Part shown: piece by piece, positions 2,826 through 41,952 of the stretch
Position numbering within the stretch: position 1 is the first letter of the stretch
How the letters are laid out: each line of letters opens with the position of its first letter
DNA from: Caldifarciminota bacterium
GTDB lineage: Bacteria; Hydrothermota; Tepidihabitantia; SM23-42; JAOAFX01
Length of the DNA: 52,901 nt
Direction: 5' to 3'
Assembly: GCA_026416055.1 (NCBI GenBank)
Contig: JAOAFX010000002.1
Location: 1 to 52,901 of the forward strand
The notes under the pieces: model-generated
The model's database searches: none
Told to the model about the DNA's origin: nothing
The model's input: the letters and a program-made list of their open reading frames with translations, nothing else
Made by a program: the position numbers and the translations under genes

Positions 2826-2853
2826 TTGACACCGGGTAAAATTTCTTTATAAT
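2826..2853 (+). promoter_or_regulatory. Sigma70-type promoter of rpmB
   Basis: -35 TTGACA (2826-2831), 16-bp spacer, -10 TATAAT (2848-2853), then SD GAAAGGAG. Confidence 0.85.
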
Positions 2854-2873
2854 TGCATTATGAAAGGAGCAAA

Positions 2874-13868: not shown

Positions 13869-14828
13869 TTAGTAAATCTTACTAATCCTACCTGCGAATA
13901 ATCGCAGAGAATTCAAAATTGCATCAATCTTCAATCGGGCGGTTCTTGAAGACTCAAATGCACCGCTATCAGTACAAAAGTGGCAATGGCGGCTTAAATT
14001 TTTTAAAATTTGATATTCACTGCGGTTTAATACTTCAGCGAGATTTTCCTTATAAACATTACCGATGACTCTGCCTGTAATACAATTCTTCAAAAAGCCA
14101 GCATTATCAATTGTGATCGAAATATCATGGGCACGGCAGGAATAATAAAAATTCCCGCTCATCGCCGAAGTTAGATATCTTTTTGAATTACCAACCGGGT
14201 ACCCCATTTCCTTCATTCTCAAAATTCGCCTGAATGCATCTCTTGCGGTTTCTTTGCTTATAAGCATTTTGCCTGAAGGGTACTCAAAGAAGATTACGGC
14301 ATTATATTGCCGGGCGAGGTCAATAGTTTTCAAGCATTCCGGATAAGAGAAATCAGATACAACTGTATTTATCATAATTCTTTTACATCTTTGATGACCG
14401 ATGCCATCGATTATTCTCTGATACAATCCATCAATACCCCTTATTTCATCAAGCTTCTTTCCCGGCGCATCAATTGAGACGATTAAGAAGTCAAGATAAT
14501 CGGTTACTGCTACTTTTTCACTCAGTAAATAGCCATTGGTGATGAGCCCGGTTTTAAAACCAAGCTTTTTAATCTCTTTAACAATTTCGAGGATATCTTC
14601 CCTGAGAAGAGGTTCACCTCCCCAGAGGGTTGTAGCATAAAAACCAAGATTACGTGCCTGCCGGTAAAAATTTATTATTCCGGTAAAACCACCATCGGGC
14701 ATGGTATTGCGCCATTTACATGTCAAACAGCGACAATTACACCTGCCGGTGATGAGATGGGAAATAAAGAATGGTTTTCTTGCCAGCGCCCGGGACAATG
14801 CATGTATGAAAACCGGAAAATTTTTCAT
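13869..14828 (-). CDS. Radical SAM protein with SPASM-like C-terminal Cys cluster
   Basis: ITGRCNCRCLTCKW (CxxxCxxC), TLWGGEPLLREDI, C-terminal CITGRVIGNVYKENL...CHFC. Confidence 0.88.
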   Translation of the reverse strand: MKNFPVFIHALSRALARKPFFISHLITGRCNCRCLTCKWRNTMPDGGFTGIINFYRQARNLGFYATTLWGGEPLLREDILEIVKEIKKLGFKTGLITNGYLLSEKVAVTDYLDFLIVSIDAPGKKLDEIRGIDGLYQRIIDGIGHQRCKRIMINTVVSDFSYPECLKTIDLARQYNAVIFFEYPSGKMLISKETARDAFRRILRMKEMGYPVGNSKRYLTSAMSGNFYYSCRAHDISITIDNAGFLKNCITGRVIGNVYKENLAEVLNRSEYQILKNLSRHCHFCTDSGAFESSRTARLKIDAILNSLRLFAGRISKIY

Positions 14829-25251: not shown

Positions 25252-26520
25252 CTACTCAATATATTCAAGCCCGTCCATATAAGGTCTAAGCACTTCTGGT
25301 ATTTTAATCCTTCCATCCTGGGTTTGATAATTTTCCACGATGCCTATAAATGTTCGGGGTGTTGCAAGTCCTGAACCATTAATGGTATAGACATAATCGA
25401 CACCACCTGTAGATTTCCGATAGCGTATCATTGCCCTGCGCGCCTGGTATTGTTCATAACAGCTTACTGAAGAGACCTCAAGCCATTCACCCATACCAGG
25501 TGCATAGACCTCAATATCATAAGTCTTGGCTGATGCAAAGGTCATATCCCCTGTACACAGAAGCATGATACGATAAGGAAGTCCGAGGAGTTTCACCACT
25601 TCCTCAGCATCGTTTAAAAGTTTTTCAAACTCCTCATACCCTGTTTCTGGAGTCGTGTATTTTACCAGTTCAACTTTATTAAACTGATGGACACGGGTTA
25701 TACCCCTGACTTCTTTCCCATAGGAACCGGCTTCACGACGAAAACAGGGAGTATAGGCAACATAACATATCGGCAAATTTTTCTCCGGTATTATCTCCTC
25801 CCTGTGGATATTGGTCAGGGGAACCTCGGCTGTAGGAATGAGATAGAAATCATCATCCCGGCATTTGTACATCTCTTTTTCCAGACGAGGCAATTGTCCG
25901 GTACCAAAAAAACAATCAGGATTATTCAGAATAGGTGGAAAAATTTCTTTATATCCATGCTTTTTTGTATGTAAATCGAGAAAAAAATTTATTAGTGCCC
26001 TTTCTAATTTTGCACCGAGGCCCTTGTAGAGAATAAATCTTGAACCCGAAAGTTTTGGCGCCCTTTTTATATCAAGGATGTCAAGGGCTTCGCAGATTTC
26101 CCAGTGAGGTATGGGTTTAAACTCATACTCAGGTGGTTCACGCAAACCACGGATGAATTTATTATCTGCATTGGTCTTTCCAACAGGAACTGTGGCATGT
26201 GGAATATTGGGAAGTAATGCCATCAATTCATTAAATTTCTCTTCAACAATTTTTAATCTTTCCTCAAATTCTTTTATTTTATCACCAATTATGCGTGCCT
26301 TTTCCATCAATGTTGATGCATCTTTTTTTTCTTGTTTCAGCCGACCCACATCTTCTGATAGTTTATTTCTCTCTTTCCTGAGATTATCGATTTCAGTGAT
26401 GATATTTCGTCTTTTTCTATCTATTTCAAGCAATTCATCAAGGTCAAATTCTACACCACGGCTCAGGAGTGCCTGGCGTATAAGTTCAGGATTTTCCCTC
26501 AGCAACTTCAAATCAATCAT
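25252..26520 (-). CDS. serS: Seryl-tRNA synthetase
   Basis: MIDLKLLRENPELIRQAL; class II motifs CFRREAGSYGKEVRGITRVHQF. Confidence 0.98.
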   Translation of the reverse strand: MIDLKLLRENPELIRQALLSRGVEFDLDELLEIDRKRRNIITEIDNLRKERNKLSEDVGRLKQEKKDASTLMEKARIIGDKIKEFEERLKIVEEKFNELMALLPNIPHATVPVGKTNADNKFIRGLREPPEYEFKPIPHWEICEALDILDIKRAPKLSGSRFILYKGLGAKLERALINFFLDLHTKKHGYKEIFPPILNNPDCFFGTGQLPRLEKEMYKCRDDDFYLIPTAEVPLTNIHREEIIPEKNLPICYVAYTPCFRREAGSYGKEVRGITRVHQFNKVELVKYTTPETGYEEFEKLLNDAEEVVKLLGLPYRIMLLCTGDMTFASAKTYDIEVYAPGMGEWLEVSSVSCYEQYQARRAMIRYRKSTGGVDYVYTINGSGLATPRTFIGIVENYQTQDGRIKIPEVLRPYMDGLEYIE

Positions 26521-26620: not shown

Positions 26621-27631
26621 TCATTCCCGTCCCATTATTTTAGCTATGGCTTTTAATTCTTGCATTAGGTTTGCAAATCCATCAAAGGTTAATGACTGAG
26701 GACCATCAGATAATGCCTGTTCTGGATTATTATGGACTTCAATCATTATACCATCAGCACCGGCTGCGATCGCTGCCCGTGCCAGTGGCAGAACCATCTC
26801 CCTCTTTCCTGAAGCATGGCTCGGGTCTGCAATCACCGGGAGATGGGAAATCTTTTTTAGTTCCGGAATACTGCTTATATCAAGGGTGAACCTCGTAAAA
26901 TCGCTGAATGTCCTGATGCCACGTTCACAAAGAATCACATTTGGATTACCTTCAGCGACTATGTATTCTGCAGCAAGAAGAAATTCCTTGATTGTCGATG
27001 CCATTCCCCTTTTTAGCAAGACTGGTTTTCTGCTCTGTCCTGCCCTTTTTAACAACGCATAATTCTGCATATTCCTTGCTCCAATCTGGATTATATCGAC
27101 GTATTCTTCAACCATGGAGAATATCTCGGTATCTGTAGCCTCCGAGACAACAGGAAGTCCTGTTTCTGCCCGTGCCTTTGCAAGAATTTTCAGCCCTTCT
27201 TCACCAAGTCCCTGGAATGAATAGGGTGATGTTCTGGGTTTGAATGCACCACCCCTGAGCAAATCTGCACCGAGTGATTTCACAGCCCTAGCAATTTCAA
27301 GCATCTGTTTCTCTGATTCTACTGCACAGGGTCCTGCGATTATTACTGTTCTTTTATCACCGATTACCACATTGCCAACATTTATCTTTGTATCATCGGG
27401 CTTCATCTCCCGGCTCACCAGTTTATAAGGCTGGGTCACATGGATGATGTTTATTACGCCTTCGAGATTTTCAATCCTTCTTGTATTAACCATTTCTTTG
27501 TTGCCGGTCACACCGATTGCCACCCTCTGTGCACCCTTGATGGGATGGGGTGTAAGCCCCATCTCTTTTATAACCGCACAGACTCTTCTTATCTGTTCTT
27601 CTGTAGCATCTTTATGCATTACTACAAGCAT
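26621..27631 (-). CDS. aroF: 3-deoxy-7-phosphoheptulonate (DAHP) synthase, type I with N-terminal regulatory-like domain
   Basis: IIAGPCAVESEKQMLEIA, GGAFKPRTSPYSFQG, DPSHASGKR. Confidence 0.97.
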   Translation of the reverse strand: MLVVMHKDATEEQIRRVCAVIKEMGLTPHPIKGAQRVAIGVTGNKEMVNTRRIENLEGVINIIHVTQPYKLVSREMKPDDTKINVGNVVIGDKRTVIIAGPCAVESEKQMLEIARAVKSLGADLLRGGAFKPRTSPYSFQGLGEEGLKILAKARAETGLPVVSEATDTEIFSMVEEYVDIIQIGARNMQNYALLKRAGQSRKPVLLKRGMASTIKEFLLAAEYIVAEGNPNVILCERGIRTFSDFTRFTLDISSIPELKKISHLPVIADPSHASGKREMVLPLARAAIAAGADGIMIEVHNNPEQALSDGPQSLTFDGFANLMQELKAIAKIMGRE

Positions 27632-27643
27632 ATACTCTCCTTT

Positions 27644-28432
27644 CTAAAGATGACCACTCACGCAACTTCTTATCGTTGCCTCTTTAAATTTTTTGAGGTA
27701 AAGATTTAAATCTTCCCGATTTTGGATAATCTCAATCAATCTGCTGCCAATTACTACACCATCAACAAACCTGCTCAATGCCTTTATCTGGTCGGTATCA
27801 GATATTCCAAAACCAACCACAACCGGCTTTTTCACAATCGATTTTACTTTTTTTACAAATGAAAAAAGGTCTGCGGGCAGTCTTTCTCTCGCGCCGGTTG
27901 TGCCAGTAACTGATACGCAGTATACAAATCCTTCTGATATTTCACCAATCATTTTTATTCTTTTCTCATCTGATGTCGGAGCAATCAGATAGATTAAATC
28001 AATGGCATATCTCTGTGCTGAATCCCTCAATATGCCGGATTCCTCAATGACAAGATCAGGGACGATAAGCCCTGATGTACCTGCTGCCTTCATTTTTTTA
28101 AAGAATTTCTCGACCCCAAATGCGATTATGGGATTGAGGTAGGACATAAAAATAATTGGCTTTCCAAGATTTAGTGGTTCTATCATTCCGAAAATCTTCG
28201 ATATGCTTATACCATTTTTTAGAGCACAATACGACGAATATTGAATCGTCCTGCCATCGGCGATCGGATCTGAAAAAGGAATTCCAATCTCAATCATATC
28301 TGCGTATCGGGCGAGGGTTCTGATATAATCGATTGATGATTCAATCCCTGGATAACCTGCGGTGATATAGGTGATGAGTGCTGACTCATTCCTTTCAGCA
28401 AGATTTTTAAATACCCCGGCAATCCTGCTCAT
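27644..28432 (-). CDS. trpA: Tryptophan synthase alpha subunit
   Basis: [39 protein letters not shown]. Confidence 0.97.
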
Positions 28433-29607
28433 TCTACACCTTCCATAATCCCCAAATCCTTGTCTCCCCTTCCTGAAAGGTTAATGATGCTAATATTATC
28501 ATCAGACATCTTCTTCGCCTCACAGATTCCGACATAGACCGCATGGGCACTCTCGAGCGCCGGAATTATACCCTCGGTCTCTGATAGAATTTTGAAGGCA
28601 TGGATAGCATCCCGGTCACGACAATGGGTATAATTTACCCGTTTGCTTGTCTTCAGGTATGCATGTTCAGGACCAACACCAGGATAATCAAGGCCGGGTG
28701 CAATGGAATGGGTCGGCATGATCTGTCCATCCTTATCCTGGAGTACAAAACTCATTGTGCCATGGAGCACACCAATCTTGCCCTTTGCCAGGGTTGCTGA
28801 GTGCTTGCCTGAATAAAGTCCCAGTCCACCAGCTTCAACCCCGAGCAATTTTACTTTTGTATCAAGGAATGGATAAAAAAATCCAATTGCATTACTGCCA
28901 CCACCGACACAGGCTATGAGAATATCAGGCATCCTTCCCGCTATCTCTTTTATCTGCTGTCTGGTTTCATGCCCGATTATAGATTGAAAATCCCTCACCA
29001 TAACCGGATAAGGATGTGGACCAACGACTGAGCCGAGGCAATAATAAGTAGTCCTGACATTCGTAACCCAGTCCCTTATCGCCTCATTTATCGCATCCTT
29101 CAGTGTTCTGCTACCTGAATCTACCACCCTCACCTCAGCACCAAGGAGTTTCATCTTGAGTATATTCACCCGCTGCCGTTCCATATCCTTTCTTCCCATG
29201 TATACCACGCATTCCAGACCGAGCACTGCACAGGCAGTCGCAGTTGCAACCCCGTGCTGTCCAGCACCGGTCTCGGCAATGATTCTTTTTTTACCCATTT
29301 TCTTTGCCAGAAGAACCTGACCGAGTGTATTATTTATCTTATGCGCACCGGTGTGGAGCAAATCTTCACGCTTGAGGAATATCCTTGCACCCTTAAATCT
29401 TTCCGAAAGATTACGGGCAAAATATAACGGTGTAGGTCTCCCTGCATAATTTTTCAAGTAGTAATCCAGTTCTTTTTTGAAATCCTTATCTTCCTTTAAA
29501 GTCCTGTAAGCATCCTCGAGCTCTTTCAAAGCCGGCATCAATGTCTCTGGAATGAATCTGCCTCCAAAGTTTCCAAAATAACCATTTTTATCAGGCAGAT
29601 GATACAT
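28429..29607 (-). CDS. trpB: Tryptophan synthase beta subunit
   Basis: [31 protein letters not shown]; start trimmed to the Met after AGGAG, inside the aroQ 3' end. Confidence 0.96.
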
Positions 29608-30040
29608 CCACATCTCCTGTTTGTAGAAAAAATTCGAGTGCCAGGATATATCCATACCAGGAAAGTCCGGTAATCTGTCCAATACATACCGGTGCAATCA
29701 AACTCTTGTGCCTGAATGTCTCGCGCGCATAGATATTGCTGATGTGGACCTCAATCGCTTTTATCTTCGTCGCCTCAATAGCATCCCGGATTGCTATCGA
29801 TGTGTGTGTATAAGCACCTGGATTTATCACCAGTCCATCATAACCTTCTGCCTTATGTATCATACCAACAATCTCACCTTCAGAATTTGACTGGTGGATA
29901 TCGATTTTTATACCTTTCTTTTCTGCGTATTCATTTATCCGGTGATTGATCTCTTCAAGAGAAAGATTTCCATAGATTTCATTTTTTCTCTTTCCCAGAA
30001 GATTCAAATTTGGACCATGGATTAATAAAATTTTCGGCAT
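29591..30040 (-). CDS. aroQ: 3-dehydroquinate dehydratase, type II
   Basis: [47 protein letters not shown]. Confidence 0.97.
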
Positions 30041-31572
30041 GAAACCTCCTTTACCCTTACCCTGCCGATTTTCTCAAATACCGGCATCCTGATAAATTTA
30101 CCTGAGGCTTTTTTATCCCGATGGATTAATTCTTTTATACTCCTTTTTATCTCTTCAGGAATATCGCACGGAAGGTTATACTTTTTCAGTAAATCTATGA
30201 TGATCTGTAAATCTTTTTTATTTCGGCTTAAAAGATTTATCTCTTCAACCATTCCCATTGCCACGGCTTCACCATGGGAAAATTTTTTATACCCGGTGAT
30301 GGTCTCAATTGTATGTCCAATGGTATGGCCGAAGTTTAAAACTTCACGAATACCTTTCTCTTCAGTCTCATCCCTTTTGATGATTGAACATTTAATTGCT
30401 ACACACCTCCGAACAATTTCAAAAAGAATCTTTATTTCCCGGTTCAAAAGTGCCTGCCTTTTATTTTGTAGTATTTCAAAGAGCTTCCGCGAGTTTATCA
30501 CACCATATTTAATCGCCTCAGCGATCCCGTTTAAAAACTCCCGCTCAGAAAGGGTTGTCAGTCTTTTAAGGTCGCACAGGACCATCTCGGGCTGGTAGAA
30601 TGTGCCGAGCATATTCTTGCCATAAACTGTATCGATACCGGTCTTTCCACCGATCGCAGCATCAATCTGGGCCAAGAGTGTTGTAGGGATATGGATAAGG
30701 CCGCATCCGCGCTTAAAGGTCGAGGCAACAAAACCAGCAATATCGTTTATAACCCCGCCGCCCAGAGAGATGATAAAATCACGGCGCTGGAAATCCGTGC
30801 GGAAAAGGTAATCGTATATCTTCCAGACCGTTTTGAAATTCTTATATCTCTCACCATCAGGAATGATAATATATTCAACCCGATTCAGATTTTTCTTTAA
30901 ATGCTCTGAAATACCATCGAGATAAAGTGCTCCAACGAGGGGGTTGGTGATTATCAAAACCCGTTTTTCCACAAGGGGAAGACGGTCTATGATATCAAAA
31001 CCGATTATCACTGGATATTCTTTTGTCCGGGTGGTGACCCTGATTGTTTCGCATTTTGCATAATCATCCAGTCTCTTCAGTTTTAGTCTATCTATAATCT
31101 CCAAGGCTAATATTGCAGGTTCTTTATCATCGGTGTCAAGCCTAAAATCTGCAAAATCATACATCCCTATTCTTTGCCTGTATAATCTCTCTATATCCGA
31201 AAGTTTCTTTATCAACGGTCTGTCTTCCCTGATTCCAATCCTTTTTTTCAAAATTTCCGGGCTTGCTGAGAGTTGTATAACCATTCCCATCCTTTTCAAA
31301 ATATGCCGGTTATCCGGATTGAGGACAATGCCTCCGCCTGTGGCGACGACCAGATTCTTCAAATCCTTAATCTGGTGGATAACATTTCTTTCCTGTTTCC
31401 GAAAGCAATCCTCGCCTTTCTTTGTAAATATCTCTTTCACCGGCATCTCTTCTGAAAGCTCAATCATTCTATCGGTGGATAAAAATCCCATATTCAATCT
31501 ACGGGCAAGTATCCTTCCCACGGTATCCTTGCCCGTACCCATAAATCCAATGAGAACGATATTATCAGGCAT
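30022..31572 (-). CDS. aroKB: Bifunctional shikimate kinase / 3-dehydroquinate synthase
   Basis: N-terminal GFMGTGKDTVGRILA kinase P-loop; C-terminal GGGVINDIAGFVASTFKRG and NFGHTIGHTIE. Confidence 0.95.
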   Translation of the reverse strand: MPDNIVLIGFMGTGKDTVGRILARRLNMGFLSTDRMIELSEEMPVKEIFTKKGEDCFRKQERNVIHQIKDLKNLVVATGGGIVLNPDNRHILKRMGMVIQLSASPEILKKRIGIREDRPLIKKLSDIERLYRQRIGMYDFADFRLDTDDKEPAILALEIIDRLKLKRLDDYAKCETIRVTTRTKEYPVIIGFDIIDRLPLVEKRVLIITNPLVGALYLDGISEHLKKNLNRVEYIIIPDGERYKNFKTVWKIYDYLFRTDFQRRDFIISLGGGVINDIAGFVASTFKRGCGLIHIPTTLLAQIDAAIGGKTGIDTVYGKNMLGTFYQPEMVLCDLKRLTTLSEREFLNGIAEAIKYGVINSRKLFEILQNKRQALLNREIKILFEIVRRCVAIKCSIIKRDETEEKGIREVLNFGHTIGHTIETITGYKKFSHGEAVAMGMVEEINLLSRNKKDLQIIIDLLKKYNLPCDIPEEIKRSIKELIHRDKKASGKFIRMPVFEKIGRVRVKEVSCRKFY

Positions 31573-32629
31573 TCTTTATCCTTTTTATGTACACCTGGTA
31601 ATTCTTTTTCATATCAGCAAGCGAATCACCGCCAAATTTTTCGCAAAATGCATCGGCAAGAACATAAGCAAGCATCGATTCACCAATAACCCCAATCGCT
31701 TCAATCACACAGACATCAGCCCTTAGCGCAGGTGCCAGAGTTTTCTGTTTGGTCTCGATGTTGACTGATTCGAGTGGTTTTTTGAGTGTCGGGATTGGCT
31801 TTGCATAAAGCCTTACGAAAATCCTCTCACCATTGCTTACACCACCTTCTATACCGCCGGCATTGTTCGTCATTCTATAAAATCCTTTCTTTTTACTAAA
31901 AAATATTGCATCATGAACTCTGGAACCGAATGACCGGGAACTCTTTATCGCTTCACCTATCTCAATCCCTTTCACTGATGGAATTGAAAGCATCGCCATA
32001 CCGATACGGGCGTCAAGCCTTTTATCATACTGTATATAACTTCCCAGCCCCGGACATACATTATCGGCATAGATTTCCACAACCCCGCCCAGTGTATCAC
32101 CTATCCTGCGGGCATATTTAACCATTCTATCCATACCAGTCCTGTCTGTAGCACGACCCACAGACAAAACCTTTGAACCGATTGATATCCCGAATTCCTT
32201 CAAAAACAATTTGAATACAGCACCTGATGCCACCCTTGCCACTGTCTCACGGGCTGAAGCCCGCTCTGCAACATCTTTCACATCAAAAAATCCAAACTTC
32301 AACATACCAGGAAGGTCAGCATGCCCGGGTCTGGGAACGAATATCTTTCCATTCCCTGTGTCTACAAGATACTCTTCTTTACGGTAATCAACATTCTTTA
32401 ACAGGAATGCTACCGGTGAGCCGATCGTTCTGCCCATGCGTACACCTGCAAGGAGTTCTGCATAATCACTTTCTAATCCCATACGCTCACCCCTTCCTTT
32501 ACCGGACTGGCGCCTTTTCAACTCATCATTTATGAAATTCAGATCTATCTTTAAACCTGCTGGTAATCCATCGATTATAACTGAAAATCCCTTACCATGT
32601 GATTCACCTGCAGTCAGGATTCTGATCAT
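31565..32629 (-). CDS. aroC: Chorismate synthase
   Basis: TAGESHGKGFSVIIDGLPAGL, ASARETVARVASGA, NNAGGIEGGVSNG. Confidence 0.97.
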   Translation of the reverse strand: MIRILTAGESHGKGFSVIIDGLPAGLKIDLNFINDELKRRQSGKGRGERMGLESDYAELLAGVRMGRTIGSPVAFLLKNVDYRKEEYLVDTGNGKIFVPRPGHADLPGMLKFGFFDVKDVAERASARETVARVASGAVFKLFLKEFGISIGSKVLSVGRATDRTGMDRMVKYARRIGDTLGGVVEIYADNVCPGLGSYIQYDKRLDARIGMAMLSIPSVKGIEIGEAIKSSRSFGSRVHDAIFFSKKKGFYRMTNNAGGIEGGVSNGERIFVRLYAKPIPTLKKPLESVNIETKQKTLAPALRADVCVIEAIGVIGESMLAYVLADAFCEKFGGDSLADMKKNYQVYIKRIKNA

Positions 32630-33402
32630 TTATACCTCCTTTTTATTACCTCCAGTACTATCTTTAATGGCAATCTCTTCTGAGTCCAGATACTGAATGA
32701 ATAAGCAGCTTGATAGACCAGCATCTCAGTTCCATCTATAATTTTAATATTCTTTCTGCGCATGAGAGGGAACTGATAATTTGTATCATAAAAAATGCTA
32801 TCCTTATTTAAATAAGGAATGATCCAGTACTGGGCATCGACCGATGTAGCATTTATTACTACATTCATCTTGTCTACTATTCTGGAGATTTCCGCGAAAT
32901 CAATGATCTCTGCATTATACTTTTTTTTGAAAAACTGCGTTTTTTCTTTAGTCCGATTGGCAACAAATAAGATTTCGGGATTTTGCCTCACAATTGCATA
33001 AATAATGGCACGGGCAACTCCACCCGCACCGATCAGAAGAATCTTTTTTCTTGCTAAATTCACCCTGTGCCTTCTAATGGATTTAATAAAACCTAAAACA
33101 TCGGTATTAAATCCAAATAATCGACGATCTTTTATTTTCACCGTGTTGACCGCACCAATATCTTTTGCCGGTTTGTTTATTCCATCAAGGTATTTCAGGA
33201 TTCTAACTTTATATGGATTGGTTACATTAAATCCACAAAAGCCTAACTTCTTGAGCGTCTCTATAACCAGTCCGAAATCTTCTTCAGGAACAGAGAGTGG
33301 AAAGTAACGGCCTTTTAGCCCCAGGACTTCAAATGCTTTATTGTGGATGAATGGTGAGAGTGTCTTCTTGAGTGGATAACCGATAACACCGGTCAGATAC
33401 AT
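32626..33402 (-). CDS. aroE: Shikimate dehydrogenase
   Basis: VIGYPLKKTLSPFIHN, GFNVTNPYK, LIGAGGVARAI. Confidence 0.96.
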   Translation of the reverse strand: MYLTGVIGYPLKKTLSPFIHNKAFEVLGLKGRYFPLSVPEEDFGLVIETLKKLGFCGFNVTNPYKVRILKYLDGINKPAKDIGAVNTVKIKDRRLFGFNTDVLGFIKSIRRHRVNLARKKILLIGAGGVARAIIYAIVRQNPEILFVANRTKEKTQFFKKKYNAEIIDFAEISRIVDKMNVVINATSVDAQYWIIPYLNKDSIFYDTNYQFPLMRRKNIKIIDGTEMLVYQAAYSFSIWTQKRLPLKIVLEVIKRRYK

Positions 33403-34022
33403 GCCCTTACCTCCTTTATGAATGCTTTTAATCTATCAGGATCTTTTTTACCCGGAAATTTTTCAACCCCGGAACAGACATCAACACCGTAAGGTTTCAC
33501 CAGTTTTATAGCCATCTTCACATTCTCTGGATTCAAACCACCACCGATGATTATTGTGCCCTTGATGCCCTTAATCATATTCCAGTCAAAGACCCGGCCG
33601 CTTCCCTCACCTGGGTCGAATAGATATGCAGGGACCGTGTATTCTTCCATGATTTCTGTTATCCTTTCAATTGTAGAATTCTCGTCAATCTTTATGCGCT
33701 TGATCAATCGCACTCTCTTTATCTGATTGCAATACGCTGGTGGCTCATTCCCATGGAGCTGTACAGCATCAATGCCACATATCTCAATTATTCTATTGAC
33801 TGTATCAAGTGGCGCATCCTTGAATACACCGACCGTAGTAATAAACGGTGGTAAGTGTTGAATAATATACCTCACCCTTTCAGGCTCTACCTTCCTCGGT
33901 GATGATGCAAAGATAAAACCAAGGGCATCAGCACCTGATTCTGAAGCAAGAAGGGCATCTTCAAGATTGGTTATACCACAGATCTTTATCTTAATATTCA
34001 TCTTCATCGAGATATTGGGCAC
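33393..34022 (-). CDS. trpF: Phosphoribosylanthranilate isomerase
   Basis: KICGITNLEDAL, LGFIFASSPR, VQLHGNE; start probably internal. Confidence 0.96.
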   Translation of the reverse strand: MPNISMKMNIKIKICGITNLEDALLASESGADALGFIFASSPRKVEPERVRYIIQHLPPFITTVGVFKDAPLDTVNRIIEICGIDAVQLHGNEPPAYCNQIKRVRLIKRIKIDENSTIERITEIMEEYTVPAYLFDPGEGSGRVFDWNMIKGIKGTIIIGGGLNPENVKMAIKLVKPYGVDVCSGVEKFPGKKDPDRLKAFIKEVRACI

Positions 34023-35085
34023 CTTTCTGAAAGAGTTTTATAAAATCATCTCTTGCACCGCCCTGGATGAGGTCTATCAGGTGATCGAGACTTTCTCTTA
34101 AATGGTGATACAGCCTGCAGCTGTAAGGGTTTAGGGACTGGATTTCAAAATATAATTCAGGATTTTCGTTTATCACACTCTTTGCCGTCTCCATCTGGGC
34201 GCTGAAGGTTGTGCTCGCCACCTTTGTCAATTCTTTAAAACTATAGCCACTATCCATAAGATTTTTGATGAAAAGAATGTTGATGAGGTGGGAAAGTCCG
34301 AGGATATAAGAAATTATACGGTCATGCTCTTCAAAAGAGAGATTTATAAGACTGACTGCGGTATCCTTGAAGAATCCCGAAATTTTTTCGTTCGCTTCAG
34401 GACATCCACAATCGCAGATGCAGATAACCTTGTCATTAAGGGTATGGCATGCAGGTCCGAACATCGGATGGATGCTTGTTATTTTCATTTTATTCTTTAT
34501 TGCTTCTTTTATTGCTTTAATCATATGGCTCTTCACGCTTGCAATGTCGGCAATAATCCCCCGATAATTTAATTCTGTAAGATTGAAAATAATCTCTGGA
34601 ACGGTTTGTAACGGTGTTGTTATGATCACGATTGATTTTTTGTCCAGTGAAGATTTGATATCACGGTAATATTTAAAACCTTTAATTCCTTCGGGTTTTA
34701 TATCCTGGATTGCAACCCGGTGTCCCTGATTCTGAAAGAAATATGCAAACCATTTCCCCATGGCACCGAGTCCACCGATGATAAGAATATCTTCTTTCTT
34801 GCCACCATATGCCGAATAATGGAGTCGCTCCTGCTGGAATCTTGAGTGTTCAATTATCCTGGTGATGAGCATCCTTGTAAAATTCACATCCAGCCCTCTT
34901 CTTCCTGCATGATTGATTGCATTTCCAATAACATCCTTTTCCACGCTCCAGTCCCGCAGTGGAATGCCGGCTTTCTTTTTCAGCCGGCCAATCTCTTTGC
35001 TGAGTTCAATCCTTTTTTTGATTAAATCCAGAATCTCGCAATCGATCTTTTTTATATTTTTTCTCAAATCATTCAGCCGATCCAT
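33991..35085 (-). CDS. tyrA: Bifunctional chorismate mutase / prephenate dehydrogenase (T-protein type)
   Basis: N-terminal chorismate mutase LRKNIKKIDCEILDLIKKRIELSKEIG; Rossmann IIGGLGAMGKWFAYFF; HPMFGPA. Confidence 0.93.
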   Translation of the reverse strand: MDRLNDLRKNIKKIDCEILDLIKKRIELSKEIGRLKKKAGIPLRDWSVEKDVIGNAINHAGRRGLDVNFTRMLITRIIEHSRFQQERLHYSAYGGKKEDILIIGGLGAMGKWFAYFFQNQGHRVAIQDIKPEGIKGFKYYRDIKSSLDKKSIVIITTPLQTVPEIIFNLTELNYRGIIADIASVKSHMIKAIKEAIKNKMKITSIHPMFGPACHTLNDKVICICDCGCPEANEKISGFFKDTAVSLINLSFEEHDRIISYILGLSHLINILFIKNLMDSGYSFKELTKVASTTFSAQMETAKSVINENPELYFEIQSLNPYSCRLYHHLRESLDHLIDLIQGGARDDFIKLFQKGAQYLDEDEY

Positions 35086-35852
35086 TTTAACTCCTGGATT
35101 TTTTTCTCAATGTCATCAGCCTTCAATATCGATGTTCCCACAAGTATTCCATCGAATCCGGCTTCGAGCAGTATCTTTACATCTAATCTATCCTTTATCC
35201 CGCTCTCACTTAAAGTGTAGTATTCTTTTGGGATGAATGGTTTCAAACTCAATGAGATTCTTATATCGACGGTAAAATCGTCAAGATTGCGATTGTTGAT
35301 ACCGATTATCCTGGTTGCGGTATTCAGGGCTTTAGCAACATCTTCGCGGTCATGGACTTCAACTATCGTCGCCATTCCCAGTTTGTGGGCAATGGCCACA
35401 AAACTTTTTAACTCTTCTCCATCCAGAATCCGCGCGATGAACAGGACTGCATCAGCACCATAAAGTCGGGATTCATAAAGCTGGTACTCATCTATGATAA
35501 AATCCTTGCACAATAATGGCAAATGTATCTTCTGTTTCAAAAGTGCTATATCTTCTAACCTTCCACCAAAAAATCTTCTGTTTGTTACTACTGAGACTGC
35601 ATCCACACCGGCAGTTTCATAGATTATTCCGATCTGGATCGGGTCAAAATCTTTTCTGATTATGCCGGTTGAAGGCGATGCTCTTTTGATTTCTGCAATC
35701 AATGCCATTTGATTCTTTTTAAAGATCTCCTCAAAATTTCGTGTTGATTCTACCTCACAATCGACCAGGTTTTTTAATGGTTTGCTTATCTTCTTTTCAG
35801 CCACCACTCTCTTGGTATCTTCAACTATCTCACCCAGTATATTCATCCACAA
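35073..35852 (-). CDS. trpC: Indole-3-glycerol phosphate synthase
   Basis: ALIAEIKRASPSTG, LLCKDFIIDEYQLYESRLYGADAVL, GINNRNLDDF, SESGI. Confidence 0.97.
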   Translation of the reverse strand: MWMNILGEIVEDTKRVVAEKKISKPLKNLVDCEVESTRNFEEIFKKNQMALIAEIKRASPSTGIIRKDFDPIQIGIIYETAGVDAVSVVTNRRFFGGRLEDIALLKQKIHLPLLCKDFIIDEYQLYESRLYGADAVLFIARILDGEELKSFVAIAHKLGMATIVEVHDREDVAKALNTATRIIGINNRNLDDFTVDIRISLSLKPFIPKEYYTLSESGIKDRLDVKILLEAGFDGILVGTSILKADDIEKKIQELKWIG

Positions 35853-36867
35853 ACCTCCTTAATTCATCAAGCTTATTCAATGCCGAGCCAGAATAGACCG
35901 ATTCCCGGGCAAGTTCCACTCCTTCCTTTATTGTCCTTGCCCTTCCTCCGATATATATTGCTGCACCTGCATTAAGCAGTGCAATATCGGTCTTTGGTCC
36001 TGGTATACCCTTTAAAACATTTAAAAAAGAATCGAGGTTATCCTTATTATCCTTGACCTTCAATTCTTCAATCCTGCATCTTTTTATACCAAAATCCTCA
36101 GGTGCAATCTCATAACTTGTAATATTTTGGTTTATAACCTCCAGTACACATGTTTCAGCCGTAGTCGTTATCTCATCAATTCCATCCTGACCATAAACAA
36201 CAAGGGCATGCCTGATTCCAAGACTCACAAGTGTTTTTGCTATTTTTTCCATAAACCCCTTTTTACACACACCGATGACCTGATATGCAACCCTCGCTGG
36301 ATTGCATAATGGCCCTAAAAGGTTAAATATCGTTCTGATTCCAATTTCTTTTCTCGGTTGTGCAACATTCTTCATTGCTGGATGAAATTTCGGTGCATAG
36401 AGGAAACCGATGCCAGTTTTTTCAATACATTCCCTCACCAGATGATTTTCCATCTCTGGTCTCAAATTGAGTGCGAAAAACAGGTCAGCACTTCCACAAT
36501 GGCTTGAGACCGAACGATTACCATGTTTTGCTACGAAACAACCCGCACCCGCAGCAATGAATGCAGCAGTCGTTGAAACATTAAATGTCTGCATACCATC
36601 ACCACCTGTGCCACAGGTATCGATCAATCGGTCTATTGCACAATCTATAGTAATCATTCTTTCCCTCATGGCATTACAGAATCCGATGAGCTCTTCGATC
36701 GTCTCACCTTTCATCCTCAGGGCTGTCAGAAAGGCACCGAGTTGAGCCGGGGTTCCATTTCCATCCATGATTTCACAGCAAATTTCATAAGCCTCTCTGA
36801 CATTCAATGATTTATTATCAACCACTTTCTTTAGTGCATCACAAATTTTTTTGCCCATTTCGCTCAT
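35830..36867 (-). CDS. trpD: Anthranilate phosphoribosyltransferase
   Basis: [46 protein letters not shown]. Confidence 0.97.
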
Positions 36868-37864
36868 TCTGCCTCCTCAGATTAAAACAGGAAAAACTTC
36901 CAGTATGGCAGGCAGAACCATTCTGTCGCACAAAGGCTAAGATTGCGTCCCGGTCACAATCTGCCCTCAATTTAATCAATTCCTGGAAATTTCCTGATGT
37001 CCTTCCCTTAAACCACAATTCCTTCCTGCTTCTTGAGAAATACCACATCCGTTCCGTTTCGAGTGTCTTTCTCAATGACTCTTTATTCGAATAGGCAAGC
37101 ATCAAAACCACACCACAGATATCCTGAACGATTGTAGGAATCAAGCCTTTTTCCCAGTTCAGCGATTCGACAAAGGCATCAATAAGGGAAATCTTTCCAG
37201 TATAGAGTGCCATGCCTAACTGGACATCAATCGCCATTGAAGAAAGGGTCTTAATCTCATCCAGGGTTGCTACACCACCGGCAACGGTGATCTTTTTATC
37301 GGTCTTTTTACGGATTTCCCTCACCATTTCCATATCAATCCCCTTCATCATCCCTTCTCTTTCTACAAATGTAAAAAGGTATTCTGAGGTATAGGATTCA
37401 AATTCTCTTATGACATCAATCAGTTGAATTCCGGTCTTCTTTCGCCAGCCGTTGGTTACTATCTCACCTTCATATGTATCGAGGGCGATGATTATTCTTT
37501 CCAGTCCTGCCGCTTCTTTTAGATGGGAAAGAAATTCGTGATTGACTTCTCCGCCTGCAAATGCCATTGAACCGATGATCACTTTACTGGCACCGAGCTG
37601 GAGCAATCTTTTCGCCTTATCAATCGTCCTTATGCCACCACCTACCCTGCAATCTGCAATCTTGAGTAATTGCTCAATAATTTCAATGTTATCGCCCCTT
37701 CCCAGCGCTGAGTCCAGGTCTATTACTGCAATTTCATTATACTTATTGAATTCCCTTGCCAGTGAGAAGGGGTCATCATATTCAAGAATTTTTTCCCGAC
37801 CCTGTTTTAATTGTACCACTTTTTTATTCATTAAATCGATTGAAGGTATCACCATCTCACGCAT
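36839..37864 (-). CDS. hisAI: HisA-HisI fusion: ProFAR isomerase plus phosphoribosyl-AMP cyclohydrolase
   Basis: His[15 protein letters not shown]...CRVGGGIRT...; C-terminal HisI domain [57 protein letters not shown]...CHTGSFSCF, one uninterrupted ORF. Confidence 0.94.
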
Positions 37865-38604
37865 ACCCCCATTTTTTTCAGATATTTCTTTATTCTTTCA
37901 ATAGTGAATTTTTTGTAATGTAGTACCGATGCAAGAAGGACAGCATCTGCCCTGCCGTGTTTTATTACCCTGTAAATCTGTTCTAAATTACCTGCGCCTC
38001 CGGAAGCGATCACCGGTATTCTTACAATTGAACTTACCCTCAGGTTCAACTCAATGTCATAACCGGTCTGGGTTCCATCCTTGTCTATAGAATTTAAAAG
38101 TATCTCACCCGCACCGAGTTTTTCACATTTCTTTGCCCAGTTTACTACATCCACACCCGAATCAAATCTTCCGCCGTGGGTAAAGCAATGCCAGGTATTT
38201 TTAACCCTTTTTGCGTCTATTGAAACCACGATGCACTGAGAGCCGAACAGGCTGGCACCTTCTTCTATTAGCCCGGGATTCTCAAGTGCGGCAGTACATA
38301 TTGCAACTTTATCTGCACCTGCGTTGAGTAAATTGCGCATATCCTCAATCGTTCTTATGCCGCCACCGACACAGAATGGTATGAATACATTCCGTGCAAC
38401 CTTCTCTACAATCCTTGCCATAGTTTTCCTTCCTTCTACTGATGCTGTAACATCAAGGAAGACCAATTCATCTGCTCCGCTATCATTGTAGTATTTAGCA
38501 AGTTCAACCGGGTCGCCAGCAATCTTCAAATCCCTAAATCGTATTCCTTTCACCACCCTTCCTTTATCAACATCAAGGCAGGGAATTATTCTAATCGTCA
38601 GCAT
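37849..38604 (-). CDS. hisF: Imidazole glycerol phosphate synthase cyclase subunit
   Basis: [23 protein letters not shown]-type barrel motifs, [13 protein letters not shown]. Confidence 0.97.
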
Positions 38605-39197
38605 CTCTCCACCCAGCTCTTTAACAGCTTCAACCCTTCCTTGCCACTCTTTTCTGGATGGAATTGTACACCATAGACATTCCCGCGATTGACGATCGAA
38701 GGATATTCAACCCCATATTCAGTAACCCCGACTACTAAACTTGTCTGTGGCGTATCTACATAGTAGCCATGGAGGAAATAGAAGTAAGTCAATTTTTTGC
38801 TACGGTCAATGATACCAGACTTTCTCAAAACCCTGACTCCATTCCAGCCAATCTGTGGAAATTTACAATCGCGAAATCTCTTTATCCGCCCTGAAAAGAT
38901 ACCGAATCCCTTTGCATTTTTTGATTCCTCGCTTGACTCAAATAACAATTGCATGCCCAGGCATATGCCCAGAAACGGTCGGTCTTCTTTTAGCCAGTCA
39001 TAAATTTTGCCAAAGAGGCCGGAGTGTATCAAACGCTTTACTGCAGAACCGAATGCGCCTACTCCAGGAAGTATAAGTCTGTCAACCAATCTAATATCTG
39101 ATGGCTTTTTGATAATGAGGCTCTTAAATCCAAGATGCTCAAGGGCATTCCTCACTGAATACAGATTTCCTGCTCCGTAATCAATTATTCCGATCAT
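38598..39197 (-). CDS. hisH: Imidazole glycerol phosphate synthase glutaminase subunit
   Basis: [40 protein letters not shown]. Confidence 0.97.
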
Positions 39198-39775
39198 AAA
39201 ATCCCCTTTGTGCTTGGAATAACATCAATTTTACCCTTCTGGCATGCCTCATTTAAAGCCCGGGCAAATGCCTTGAAGACTGCTTCAATCTTGTGATGGT
39301 CTGACCTGCCCGAAAGAAGTTTAATGTGGAGTGCACAGGGGCAACCGTTTACAAAGCCGGCAAAAAAATCTTCTATGGTATCTACTTCAAAATCTCCCAA
39401 TTTTTTACCCTTAAAGTTACCTGAAAATTTTAAAAAACTCCTTCCGCTAAGGTCGATTGCGACCAGAGCAAGGGCTTCATCCATTGGGTAGATAAAGAAT
39501 CCTGCACGCCTTATACCCTTTTTATCACCGAGTGCCTTGCTCAATGCAAGCCCAAGGCATAATCCGGTATCTTCAACGATATGGTGCTGGTCAACATGTA
39601 AGTCCCCTTTTATTTTTGCCGAAATATCGAATCCACTATGCCGGCATAATGTCTCCAGCATATGGATTAAAAAACCCATGGGTGCTGAAACATCACAATT
39701 TCCCTTGCCTTCGATCTTTAATTCAAGCATGATATCGCTCTCTTTCGTCTTCCTTCTTATCGTTGCTCTACGCAT
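39194..39775 (-). CDS. hisB: Imidazoleglycerol-phosphate dehydratase
   Basis: RRKTKESDI, FLIHMLETLCRHSGFDI, DLHVDQHHIVEDTGLCLG. Confidence 0.97.
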   Translation of the reverse strand: MRRATIRRKTKESDIMLELKIEGKGNCDVSAPMGFLIHMLETLCRHSGFDISAKIKGDLHVDQHHIVEDTGLCLGLALSKALGDKKGIRRAGFFIYPMDEALALVAIDLSGRSFLKFSGNFKGKKLGDFEVDTIEDFFAGFVNGCPCALHIKLLSGRSDHHKIEAVFKAFARALNEACQKGKIDVIPSTKGIL

Positions 39776-40820
39776 CGAGACCTCCGGTTATTCGGGCTAA
39801 CTCTTTTAAAAATATTTGATTCTCCAATGGTTTACCAATAGTAACCCTGAGCATATTATTCAGGTCAGGGTGATTGAATTTTCGCACAAGGATATCTTTT
39901 TCATAAAGTTTTTTGAAGATACATTCTGCAGAACCATCTTTCACTCCAAAAAGGATGAAATTGGCACGGGAAGGGATAGGAATGATTTTAGGTATGCTAT
40001 TGAGCTGCTCAAAGACACGCTCCCTTTCGCCAATTATCTTTTTCACAATTTCATTGACCAGTCTTTTTTTTCTGAGCAGGAAATTTGCCACATTTATCTG
40101 GAAAATTCCAACCGAAAACGGCAATTTCGCCTTTGAGATCTGCTTTGCTACATCAGGATGGCAGAGCATATAACCGAGCCTGACACCGGCAAGCCCGAAT
40201 GCCTTGGAAAATGTTCGTAAAATTAAGAGGTTTGGATATTTGAAAAGGAATCCCTGAGCGGTCTTGCCATGGAATTCATAATAAGCCTCATCTATGATTA
40301 CCATGGCTTTCTTCATCTGCAAGATTTTTTCTATCCCGGATAACTCAATAGCTGTTCCGGTTGGATTATTCGGAGTTGCAATATATACCGCCTTTGAACC
40401 CCTGACACATCTCAATAACCCTTCAACATCAAAAGAGAAGTCGTTCCTCAGTCGTACTTCTTTAACTTTTAATTGAAGAATCCGCGCAAGATAAGGATAG
40501 ATTGCAAAACCAGGCCTGACCACGGTGATACTGTCCCCTTTATCACAGGTTGCCAGCATGCTTGCGAGAATCAGTTCATTAGAACCATCACCGATGACAA
40601 TCCCTTCAGGAGGATGGCTGGTATAATCGGCCAGTGCCTTTTTTAATTCTTCAGGTACTTCAGGCGGATAACGATTCCATGGTATTTTCTTTAACTGTGC
40701 CAGTATTTCATTTTTATACGCCTCTGGTATATCATAGGGTGATTCATTCTGATTCAATTTTATCAGCGCCTTCTGTGGAACTTCGTAAGGTGGTAGTTCT
40801 ATTATCGCTTTTTTAATCAT
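39768..40820 (-). CDS. hisC: Histidinol-phosphate aminotransferase
   Basis: KLNQNESPYDIP, GDGSNELI, TPNNPTGT, DEAYYEF, LRTFSKAFGLAGVRLGY. Confidence 0.96.
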   Translation of the reverse strand: MIKKAIIELPPYEVPQKALIKLNQNESPYDIPEAYKNEILAQLKKIPWNRYPPEVPEELKKALADYTSHPPEGIVIGDGSNELILASMLATCDKGDSITVVRPGFAIYPYLARILQLKVKEVRLRNDFSFDVEGLLRCVRGSKAVYIATPNNPTGTAIELSGIEKILQMKKAMVIIDEAYYEFHGKTAQGFLFKYPNLLILRTFSKAFGLAGVRLGYMLCHPDVAKQISKAKLPFSVGIFQINVANFLLRKKRLVNEIVKKIIGERERVFEQLNSIPKIIPIPSRANFILFGVKDGSAECIFKKLYEKDILVRKFNHPDLNNMLRVTIGKPLENQIFLKELARITGGLDA

Positions 40821-41671
40821 ATCACGACCTTTCTGAATTCATACTCCAGGATATCAGTGGCACCGAGTTTCTTCAACCGGGGAATGAGTTTAACCACCTC
40901 ATTTTTTTTCACCGCAACCTTTACTGCAAAGCCTTTTTCACCATATAGAGGTGCGACCGTTGGTGCACGCATGCACGGTAGAATTTTTACGATTTGCTCA
41001 AATTTCTCTTTTGGCACATTCATCTCCAGCATCACCCTTTCTCGGGCATCAAGGACTGCCTGAAATAGCATCTTCAATTCTTCAATCTTGTCTTTCTTCC
41101 ATGGATTTCGTAGGGCATCCCTGCTCGCAATGAATCTGGTTGTGGAATCCATGATCACTTTATAGATTTTCAAATTATGCTCTTTTAAAGTCGTACCGGT
41201 TGCAGTATTATCGATAATCATATCGGCATCCTCGGGTGGAAAGACCTCGGTCGCACCATAGGTACGTAAGAATTTGTAATTGAATCCCTCTTTATTCAGA
41301 AATTCCTTTGTCAGCCTTTCATATTCCGATGCAACGATGATTTTCTTTCTGCGCAGGATTTTTATGTCTGTATTCTCAGGGATTGCAGAGACGATTCTGA
41401 CCGGGTCCAATTTTAAATCCATAACTTCAACAACATCGGCGTCGGATTCCACAATCCAGTCCCTGCCTGTGAATCCTGCATCATGCGAACCGATTTCAAT
41501 CAAATCTGGTATATTTTGAGGTCTCAACACTTTAACCTGAAGTTCTGGATCACTGACGAAAGGCCGGTATACCCGTTCATTCATCTTCATATAAATTCCC
41601 GCATCGAGGAATAATTTCATGATACTATCAAAGATACTTCCCTTAGGGATGACAAGGTTCAGTCTTTTCAA
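40817..41671 (-). CDS. hisG: ATP phosphoribosyltransferase (long form)
   Basis: LNLVIPKGSIFDSIMKLF, GFTGRDWIVE, DADMIIDNTATGTTL, C-terminal regulatory domain; TTG start after AAAGGAGG. Confidence 0.96.
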   Translation of the reverse strand: MKRLNLVIPKGSIFDSIMKLFLDAGIYMKMNERVYRPFVSDPELQVKVLRPQNIPDLIEIGSHDAGFTGRDWIVESDADVVEVMDLKLDPVRIVSAIPENTDIKILRRKKIIVASEYERLTKEFLNKEGFNYKFLRTYGATEVFPPEDADMIIDNTATGTTLKEHNLKIYKVIMDSTTRFIASRDALRNPWKKDKIEELKMLFQAVLDARERVMLEMNVPKEKFEQIVKILPCMRAPTVAPLYGEKGFAVKVAVKKNEVVKLIPRLKKLGATDILEYEFRKVVI

Positions 41672-41735
41672 TCAAACCTCCTTTTTTGTAACCTTTACCT
41701 TATTTTTAAAAAGCTATGGGGTTATTTTATGTGGT

Positions 41736-41801
41736 AAAAAGCATGGTGGCACTTCCGGGACCAAAAAGGATTTCTGACCCTTATTGGGCCCGGAAGTGCC
41801 A
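41736..41801 (-). terminator. Attenuator-type hairpin upstream of hisG
   Basis: TGGCACTTCCGGG-C-CCAATAAGG-gtcagaaat-CCTTTTTGG-T-CCCGGAAGTGCCA followed by CCATGCTTTTT; T tract is offset by several nt from the stem. Confidence 0.7.
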
Positions 41802-41918
41802 GTACCAGTAATGATTAAAGTGGAATGTGGTGTGGTTGTGGTTAAGACTTAAAAAAGGAATATATATTCGATTCAGACAGATGGCTTCGAGCGGTTTTTG
41901 CCTGAAAATCTTAACCAC
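41781..41918 (-). CDS. Composite His/Phe/Tyr/Trp leader peptide of the his-trp-aro operon
   Basis: GTG start 6 nt after the -10; reading frame VVKIFRQKPLEAICLNRIYIPFLSLNHNHTTFHFNHYWYWHFRAQ*, with His x5, Phe x3, Tyr x2, Trp x2 in 16 consecutive codons; stop inside the hairpin. Not in the supplied ORF track. Confidence 0.78.
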   Translation of the reverse strand: MVKIFRQKPLEAICLNRIYIPFLSLNHNHTTFHFNHYWYWHFRAQ

Positions 41919-41924
41919 GAGACA

Positions 41925-41952
41925 ATTATATTCAAAAATCTCTTTTTGTCAA
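41925..41952 (-). promoter_or_regulatory. Promoter of the his-trp-aro operon
   Basis: Perfect -35 TTGACA (41947-41952), 16-bp spacer, perfect -10 TATAAT (41925-41930). Confidence 0.9.

Follow-up and report, generated by a model that had tools for sequence, protein, structure and literature searches.

A leader peptide with His, Phe, Tyr and Trp codons ahead of two histidine and aromatic amino acid operons, and its putative role in ribosome-mediated attenuation

The window (the whole 52.9-kb stretch of DNA that was analyzed) carries an operon of his, trp and shared aro genes together with CM/tyrA and aroF, as named by NCBIfam, the first gene of which, hisG, begins at 41671 (-). Between a perfect promoter and hisG lies a previously unannotated leader ORF, read from GTG 41918 to TAA 41781 (-), which translates to VVKIFRQKPLEAICLNRIYIPFLSLNHNHTTFHFNHYWYWHFRAQ before the stop codon (Table 1). 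The original prediction had described this promoter, this ORF and a run of His and aromatic codons between the promoter and hisG, and these held exactly as described; a recount of codons 27–42, HNHTTFHFNHYWYWHF, confirmed five His, three Phe, two Tyr and two Trp (12/16). The same four residues account for 9.8% of the operon's own proteins (binomial P ~1e-9), and codons 27–42 were the richest 16-residue stretch for them in the six frames of the whole window. In 2000 shuffles of the leader, their count per 16 residues never exceeded nine. Beyond the original prediction, the analysis brought out a GTG predicted to be the first codon of the transcript, a buried start, a stop codon inside a hairpin arm and a second leader copy. 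Within the operon, a HisA-HisI fusion was also observed at 36839-37864 (-) as a single ORF of 341 aa without a HisE part, the counterpart of which in G126, a genome of another class, is a HisA-HisIE of 415 aa.

Table 1. Positions in the window of the leader, its predicted RNA elements and the neighboring genes.
Feature	Position	Strand	Support
Promoter TTGACA-16-TATAAT	41925..41952	-	12/12 consensus matches; retained in all aligned leaders
GTG start codon at predicted +1 (leaderless)	41916..41918	-	6 nt past -10 box in 10/10 aligned leaders; +1 without experimental mapping
Leader ORF, 45 codons plus TAA	41781..41918	-	Open in all relatives, other frames closed; pS>>pN over last 20 codons
Arm A (partner of arm B), start codon buried in the pairing	41906..41918	-	Fold
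Arm B	41838..41850	-	Fold, as arm A
His/Phe/Tyr/Trp codon run, codons 27–42	41793..41840	-	Translation and composition count
Core regulatory codons HYWYWHF, codons 36–42	41793..41813	-	Kept, with synonymous changes, in three species and in both leader copies of each; modelled stalls at 37–42 open hairpin
Hairpin C:D (attenuator hairpin), stop codon inside 5' arm	41747..41801	-	Folds; two double changes in G011; 95.5% paired cells
U5 tract, 7 nt past stem, possible terminator tail	41736..41740	-	In 5/9 leaders only
Shine-Dalgarno of hisG, AGGAGG	41677..41682	-	Sequence; conserved
Presumed regulated operon hisG-C-B-H-F-A/I-trpD-trpC-CM/tyrA-trpF-aroE-aroC-aroK/B-aroQ-trpB-trpA-aroF	26621..41671	-	NCBIfam
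serS, next after operon	25252-26520		NCBIfam

A search of 61 genomes with the leader DNA detected a second copy of the leader in each of three congeners, unlinked to the hisG copy. In all three, this copy heads aroF-pheA-aroA-trpE-trpG-hisD (gene names were assigned by NCBIfam for G000). An RNA model search of the three congeners found no third leader copy, the remaining matches there being the palindrome on the opposite strand. Between them, the two leader-headed operons carried the genes found for the His, Trp, Tyr, Phe and shikimate pathways, and the codons of the leader match exactly the amino acids made by these two operons. The claim that the hisG operon carries his, trp, tyrosine and shared shikimate genes, and that the leader has codons for all of these products, was thus upheld with a qualification for Phe, since the Phe codons are accounted for by pheA in the second operon and the shared chorismate-mutase step and not by the hisG operon alone.

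Two congeneric genomes, with HisG proteins 84 and 80% identical, retained the promoter, the ORF, both stems and hisG, and HYWYWHF was kept in both leader copies of the three species. The leader frame was open from the start codon in 10/10 aligned leaders, each other frame containing one to five stops, and leader lengths varied by whole codons (45, 46, 38, and 56). Over the last 20 codons, pS/pN was 0.22/0.00, 0.32/0.06, and 0.32/0.06 among the hisG leaders and 0.51/0.10 for the pair G004-G005; over codons 5–24, the same four comparisons gave nearly equal values (0.73/0.65, 0.60/0.49, 0.68/0.56, and 0.39/0.32). Hence, selection preserves the regulatory end, whereas the spacer is free to drift within the frame. 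The contrast was weaker for leader copies compared between operons, with 0.24/0.23 for G002_aroF-G003_aroF. These values rest on few sites, and the hairpin described below also constrains the last codons; this calls for caution, but codons 35, 36, and 39, which show synonymous changes, sit upstream of the hairpin stem. Arg replaces His at codon 41 in both G002_aroF and G011, where only the boundary His codons are left, and the upstream His/Phe codons drift (YYFYKITNRFNF in G000_aroF). The leader is a translated frame under selection, a result inferred from sequence alone, translation not having been observed directly. The original prediction had proposed that His, Trp, Tyr and Phe codons would persist among relatives as the others drifted; this test was run and held, and neither relatives lacking the ORF nor frameshifts among relatives, either of which would have refuted the prediction, were encountered.

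The leader region folds strongly (z -5.9). Nucleotides 1–13 of the leader pair with nucleotides 69–81, burying the start codon, and the arms of this stem, A and B (GTGGTTAAGA/TCTTAACCAC), are identical in the three hisG leaders, the aroF copies carrying changes. Downstream, hairpin C:D comprises 21 bp, with the HYWYWHF codons at and inside its 5' arm. The layout was shared by all leaders of the order: a start at the predicted +1, a stem, largely unpaired regulatory codons, and then the hairpin, in the 5' arm of which the last regulatory codons lie. The stop codon falls within the 5' half of the hairpin in the congeners and in G011, and the ORF spans the whole hairpin in G004/G005. Covariation in the hairpin came from G011, in which two pairs had changed from G-C to A-U, and 95.5% of the hairpin's cells were paired vs. 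35–59% for a slid alignment; the covariation rests on only seven sequences, one row being divergent. Beyond the stop codon, sequence conservation continued into the loop of the hairpin. No Rfam match was obtained at the gathering score, nor anything relevant at E up to 10, and a T-box or other Rfam element was rejected on this lack of a covariance-model match. A weak match to the hairpin model (E 0.0056) was noted in another family of the phylum, at G072:C39:4364-4433 (-), locus L184.

The start codon lies 6 nt from the -10 box in nine leaders of the order and in G126, and 8 nt from it in G087. With the usual distance from -10 to +1, the GTG is predicted to be the first codon of the transcript. 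The leader transcript would then be leaderless, with the start codon at the predicted +1 and without a Shine-Dalgarno, an inference from the 6-nt spacing, the 5' end not having been mapped. In ~88 kb of DNA of the genus, RTG after promoter-like sites peaked at spacing 6 (11 vs. ~2 elsewhere), 4/11 of these sites being the leaders themselves. The signature TTGACA-TATAAT-N6-RTG occurred 28–33 times per genome in the genus, a count that is only indicative, with the reversed pattern as its sole control. Leaderless initiation may be general in this lineage, as far as can be judged from sequence alone. One example of a perfect promoter followed 6 nt on by RTG is found in the window at 2826-2862 (+), ~30 such sites occurring per genome in the genus.

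Leaders of this type were also found beyond the genus. In G011, which belongs to another family of the same order, the leader MLTNTRKPFSLTNILARPSGLGRINHFEHHYWYWRFRT (to the stop codon) lies ahead of a his operon; in G004, MLNFTAQNFLQSHIRLLVINTNNSAVPFVYFFNYFWHPGHCLGCH (to the stop codon) precedes hisG, with trpD-trpC-CM/tyrA-trpF-aroE, aroKB, and trpB downstream; and in G126, a his-trp-aro operon containing pheA is headed by a leader with RYYVYPYIFYYSWWH. The trp genes of G011 were only partly recovered, without IGPS, in a genome 86% complete. This MAG, with 7% contamination, carries two sets of hisG plus hisF/hisA, at G011:C65 and G011:C96 (L069, L070); the leader is present at the C65 copy only, and the C96 set may be a contaminant.

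A congener of G004, G005 (99% complete), contained no hisG and no IGPS, and PF00977 gave one weak partial match only. Its leader heads CM/tyrA-aroE-aroC-aroKB-aroQ-aroF-pheA-aroA, and the only leader Trp codon is now GGG (FVYFFNYFWHPGH to FVYFFNFIGHPGH); the Phe and Tyr codons remain, as do the His codons in the hairpin, where they also take part in base pairing. The Trp codon has thus been lost in a relative that lost his and trp genes, one clear loss event and not a statistical trend. By eye, a stub resembling the start of hisG was seen in G005 after a Shine-Dalgarno, between the leader and CM/tyrA (L140, ~14062-14230 (-)).

A Phe/Tyr leader stands before aroF in G087-G090; it reads MGSVRFYFTRFYYYPLIERG in G087, where aroF is followed by aroA-aroE-aroC. 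These Phe/Tyr-rich leaders (L148 5474 (-); L116-L118, L120) seemed to be classical attenuators with competing stems; in the G087-type leader, a GC-rich stem, CCCCATCCCTTCTC ... GAGAAGAGGTGGGG, followed by a U-run, was recognized by eye, and the layout is more classical. Among hisG relatives elsewhere, many had ordinary His-run leaders (e.g., L013, L020, L027, L046) or none, and no composite leader was found. The aroF upstream regions of G016, G005, G126, G127, G131, G091, G011, and G108 were operon-internal or without a leader. The possibility that the HYWYW motif extends more widely across the phylum was rejected, the 12 other pattern matches being chance or unrelated proteins, and a candidate before hisC in G127 (9-nt spacing, FFYLHF) was too weak to count.

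To model the effect of a stalled ribosome, the RNA under it, taken to extend 10 nt beyond the A-site codon, was removed and the rest was refolded. In G000_hisG, the hairpin remained intact with the A site at codons 27–36 (-41 to -38 kcal/mol); beyond codon 36, the values were -28 (Y37), -23 (W38), -18.5 (Y39), -11.7 (W40), and -10.3 kcal/mol (H41 and F42). Each of the other leaders of the order showed the collapse as well, at positions of its own. Since the hairpin collapses only for stalls at codons 37–42, the codons capable of occlusion are the conserved ones. The model thus predicts that RNA structure depends on ribosome position, and that the drifting upstream His/Phe codons could not act by occlusion. 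The footprint is an assumption, uncertain by ~3 nt, and His 36 may thus fall inside it. Hence, of the run of codons 27–42 to which the original prediction had pointed, only about the last seven (HYWYWHF) are positioned to act. By inspection, no conserved competing antiterminator pairing was found among the aligned leaders, and the mechanism is therefore probably not a classical 1:2/2:3/3:4 switch; the modelled occlusion also favors direct occlusion over an antiterminator switch.

The reading considered likely (probability ~0.72) is ribosome-mediated attenuation by direct occlusion of the hairpin, responding to four tRNAs, for which no expression, Ribo-seq or starvation data are available. In this view, transcription would start at the GTG and a ribosome would load straight onto the 5' end of the nascent RNA, passing arm A, a neutral spacer and then the His/Phe/Tyr/Trp codons. 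With the four aminoacyl-tRNAs plentiful, it would reach the UAA inside the hairpin and leave, C:D would form, and transcription would stop or drop before hisG. Undercharging of tRNA-His, -Tyr, -Trp or -Phe would make the ribosome stall on HYWYWHF with its footprint over the 5' arm of C:D, and the operon would be read through. Stem A:B may close behind the ribosome, hide the start codon and limit later rounds and, as has been argued for C. glutamicum ilvBNC (PMC11857589), may allow initiation on the nascent transcript only. The unlinked second copy would control its operon likewise. Stalling, termination at C:D, the four-tRNA response and the role of A:B are all inferred parts; the proposal that a ribosome-mediated attenuator integrates four tRNA-charging signals was therefore supported, with four-tRNA sensing remaining an inference. 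A possible objection is that an unstalled ribosome at the stop codon also covers the hairpin until release. A bolder reading, which could as readily fail as hold, joins a leaderless composite leader, four-tRNA sensing by occlusion of one hairpin without an antiterminator, a two-copy cross-pathway regulon and a codon set edited as pathways are lost.

The weak link of the attenuation reading is how transcription stops. The leaders of G004 and G005 and the three hisG copies had a U-tract (U4-6 at 5–9 nt from the stem), the three aroF copies and G011 (4/9 leaders) had none, and a standard terminator scan found no terminator at the leader. With a U-tract in only 5/9 leaders, the output step is unproven. 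The best-surviving rival, which is possible, keeps the composite ribosome-sensed leader and takes Rho-dependent or pause-assisted termination as the output: the stalled ribosome would keep Rho off a C-rich, G-poor stretch, and C:D would be a pause hairpin or spacer. The tnaC leader is a precedent for a stalled ribosome excluding Rho. This rival is supported by the leaders without a U-tract and the distance of the U-tract from the stem in the others, by the excess of C over G between hairpin and Shine-Dalgarno in 9/9 leaders, and by the presence of a Rho gene. Nevertheless, the excess of C over G may merely reflect an unstructured 5' region, and the Rho rival does not need the conservation and covariation of the hairpin or the match of the codons to the hairpin-opening positions.

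A classical three-hairpin attenuator, with A:B as anti-antiterminator and B:C as antiterminator upon a stall at the first His codons, is unlikely. In its favor, A:B shields the start, as in C. glutamicum ilvBNC (PMC11857589), and CCACAACCA (B) could pair with UGGUAUUGG (C) in the hisG copies. However, G000_aroF lacks the B:C pairing and G002_aroF has only a poor version of it, drift is seen in the upstream His/Phe codons, as in YYFYKITNRFNF, and the inside of a terminator arm is a non-classical place for a stop codon. Finally, a structured non-coding element or dispersed palindromic repeat with an aromatic/His translation by chance would fit the strong folding and the conservation past the stop codon, but is very unlikely given the frame-specific pS>>pN, the lengths in multiples of three, the open frame, the codon set that tracks gene content and the lack of a relevant Rfam match; a repeat was rejected because each genome has only two copies, one ahead of each operon.

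Attenuation by direct occlusion, as proposed here, can be set against known systems. The hisL, trpL, and pheL leaders of E. coli and Salmonella have codons for the product amino acid before a hairpin, and stalling leads to read-through. The general mechanism of leader-peptide attenuation has been described (PMC1183508). Unlike the present leader, hisL, trpL, and pheL serve one amino acid each, with a Shine-Dalgarno start, an alternative 2:3 antiterminator and a terminator with an adjacent U-run. The leader peptide IlvL of C. glutamicum ilvBNC combines Ile, Val, and Leu (PMC11857589); it resembles the present leader in bringing several amino acids into one leader, in the shielding of the start by a hairpin and in the start of transcription one nt from the start codon, comparable to the predicted leaderless start. 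Nevertheless, IlvL covers three amino acids of one branched pathway in a 15-codon ORF, with antiterminator and terminator downstream, whereas the present leader covers four amino acids of two pathways, with its stop codon inside the hairpin arm and no conserved antiterminator. Another multi-amino-acid leader is that of M. tuberculosis ilvB1, with LVVI (PMC13236596). Actinobacterial ilvB leaders (PMC1262725) are likewise short ORFs with Ile/Val/Leu runs overlapping a candidate terminator hairpin, but they are branched-chain only, have clear U-runs after the hairpins and belong to a different phylum. In Sinorhizobium meliloti, the trpL leader ORF is leaderless, the RNA beginning with its ATG, but it has 14 codons, Trp only, and a single operon (PMC7298713). 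The candidate leader ORF uORFC-13-1 before Acholeplasma aroF (PMC8632094) shares Phe codon(s) and a terminator, but is limited to Phe, has a ribosome-binding site and lacks any His/Trp/Tyr design. No His/Trp/Phe/Tyr composite leader was found in the 5.39 million open-access papers searched, and the earlier statement that no leader of this four-way composition was known thus held within them; most subscription papers lay outside the search, and absence is not proof. In Bacillus and in fungi, cross-pathway effects between the synthesis of histidine and that of the aromatic amino acids are known to arise through other mechanisms.

The usual view of a leader peptide is of a sensor for a single amino acid or a single pathway family. 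Here, the four-amino-acid leader is real, selected and reaches two operons; ribosome-mediated attenuation is already known, and its four-amino-acid version would be new, the output step being unproven. One 45-codon ORF appears to read the four amino acids of the histidine and aromatic pathways before both operons that make them, an apparent cis-acting, protein-free cross-pathway control in an uncultured lineage. Furthermore, the relatives form a natural series, from H/F/Y/W codons at four-product operons, through a relative stripped of his and trp genes whose Trp codon is gone, to a leader with Phe/Tyr codons ahead of aro genes; comparative genomics can therefore put to the test the idea that the codons of a leader follow gene content. 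The short HYWYWHF cassette can also serve as a compact system for testing multi-input attenuation that uses no antiterminator.
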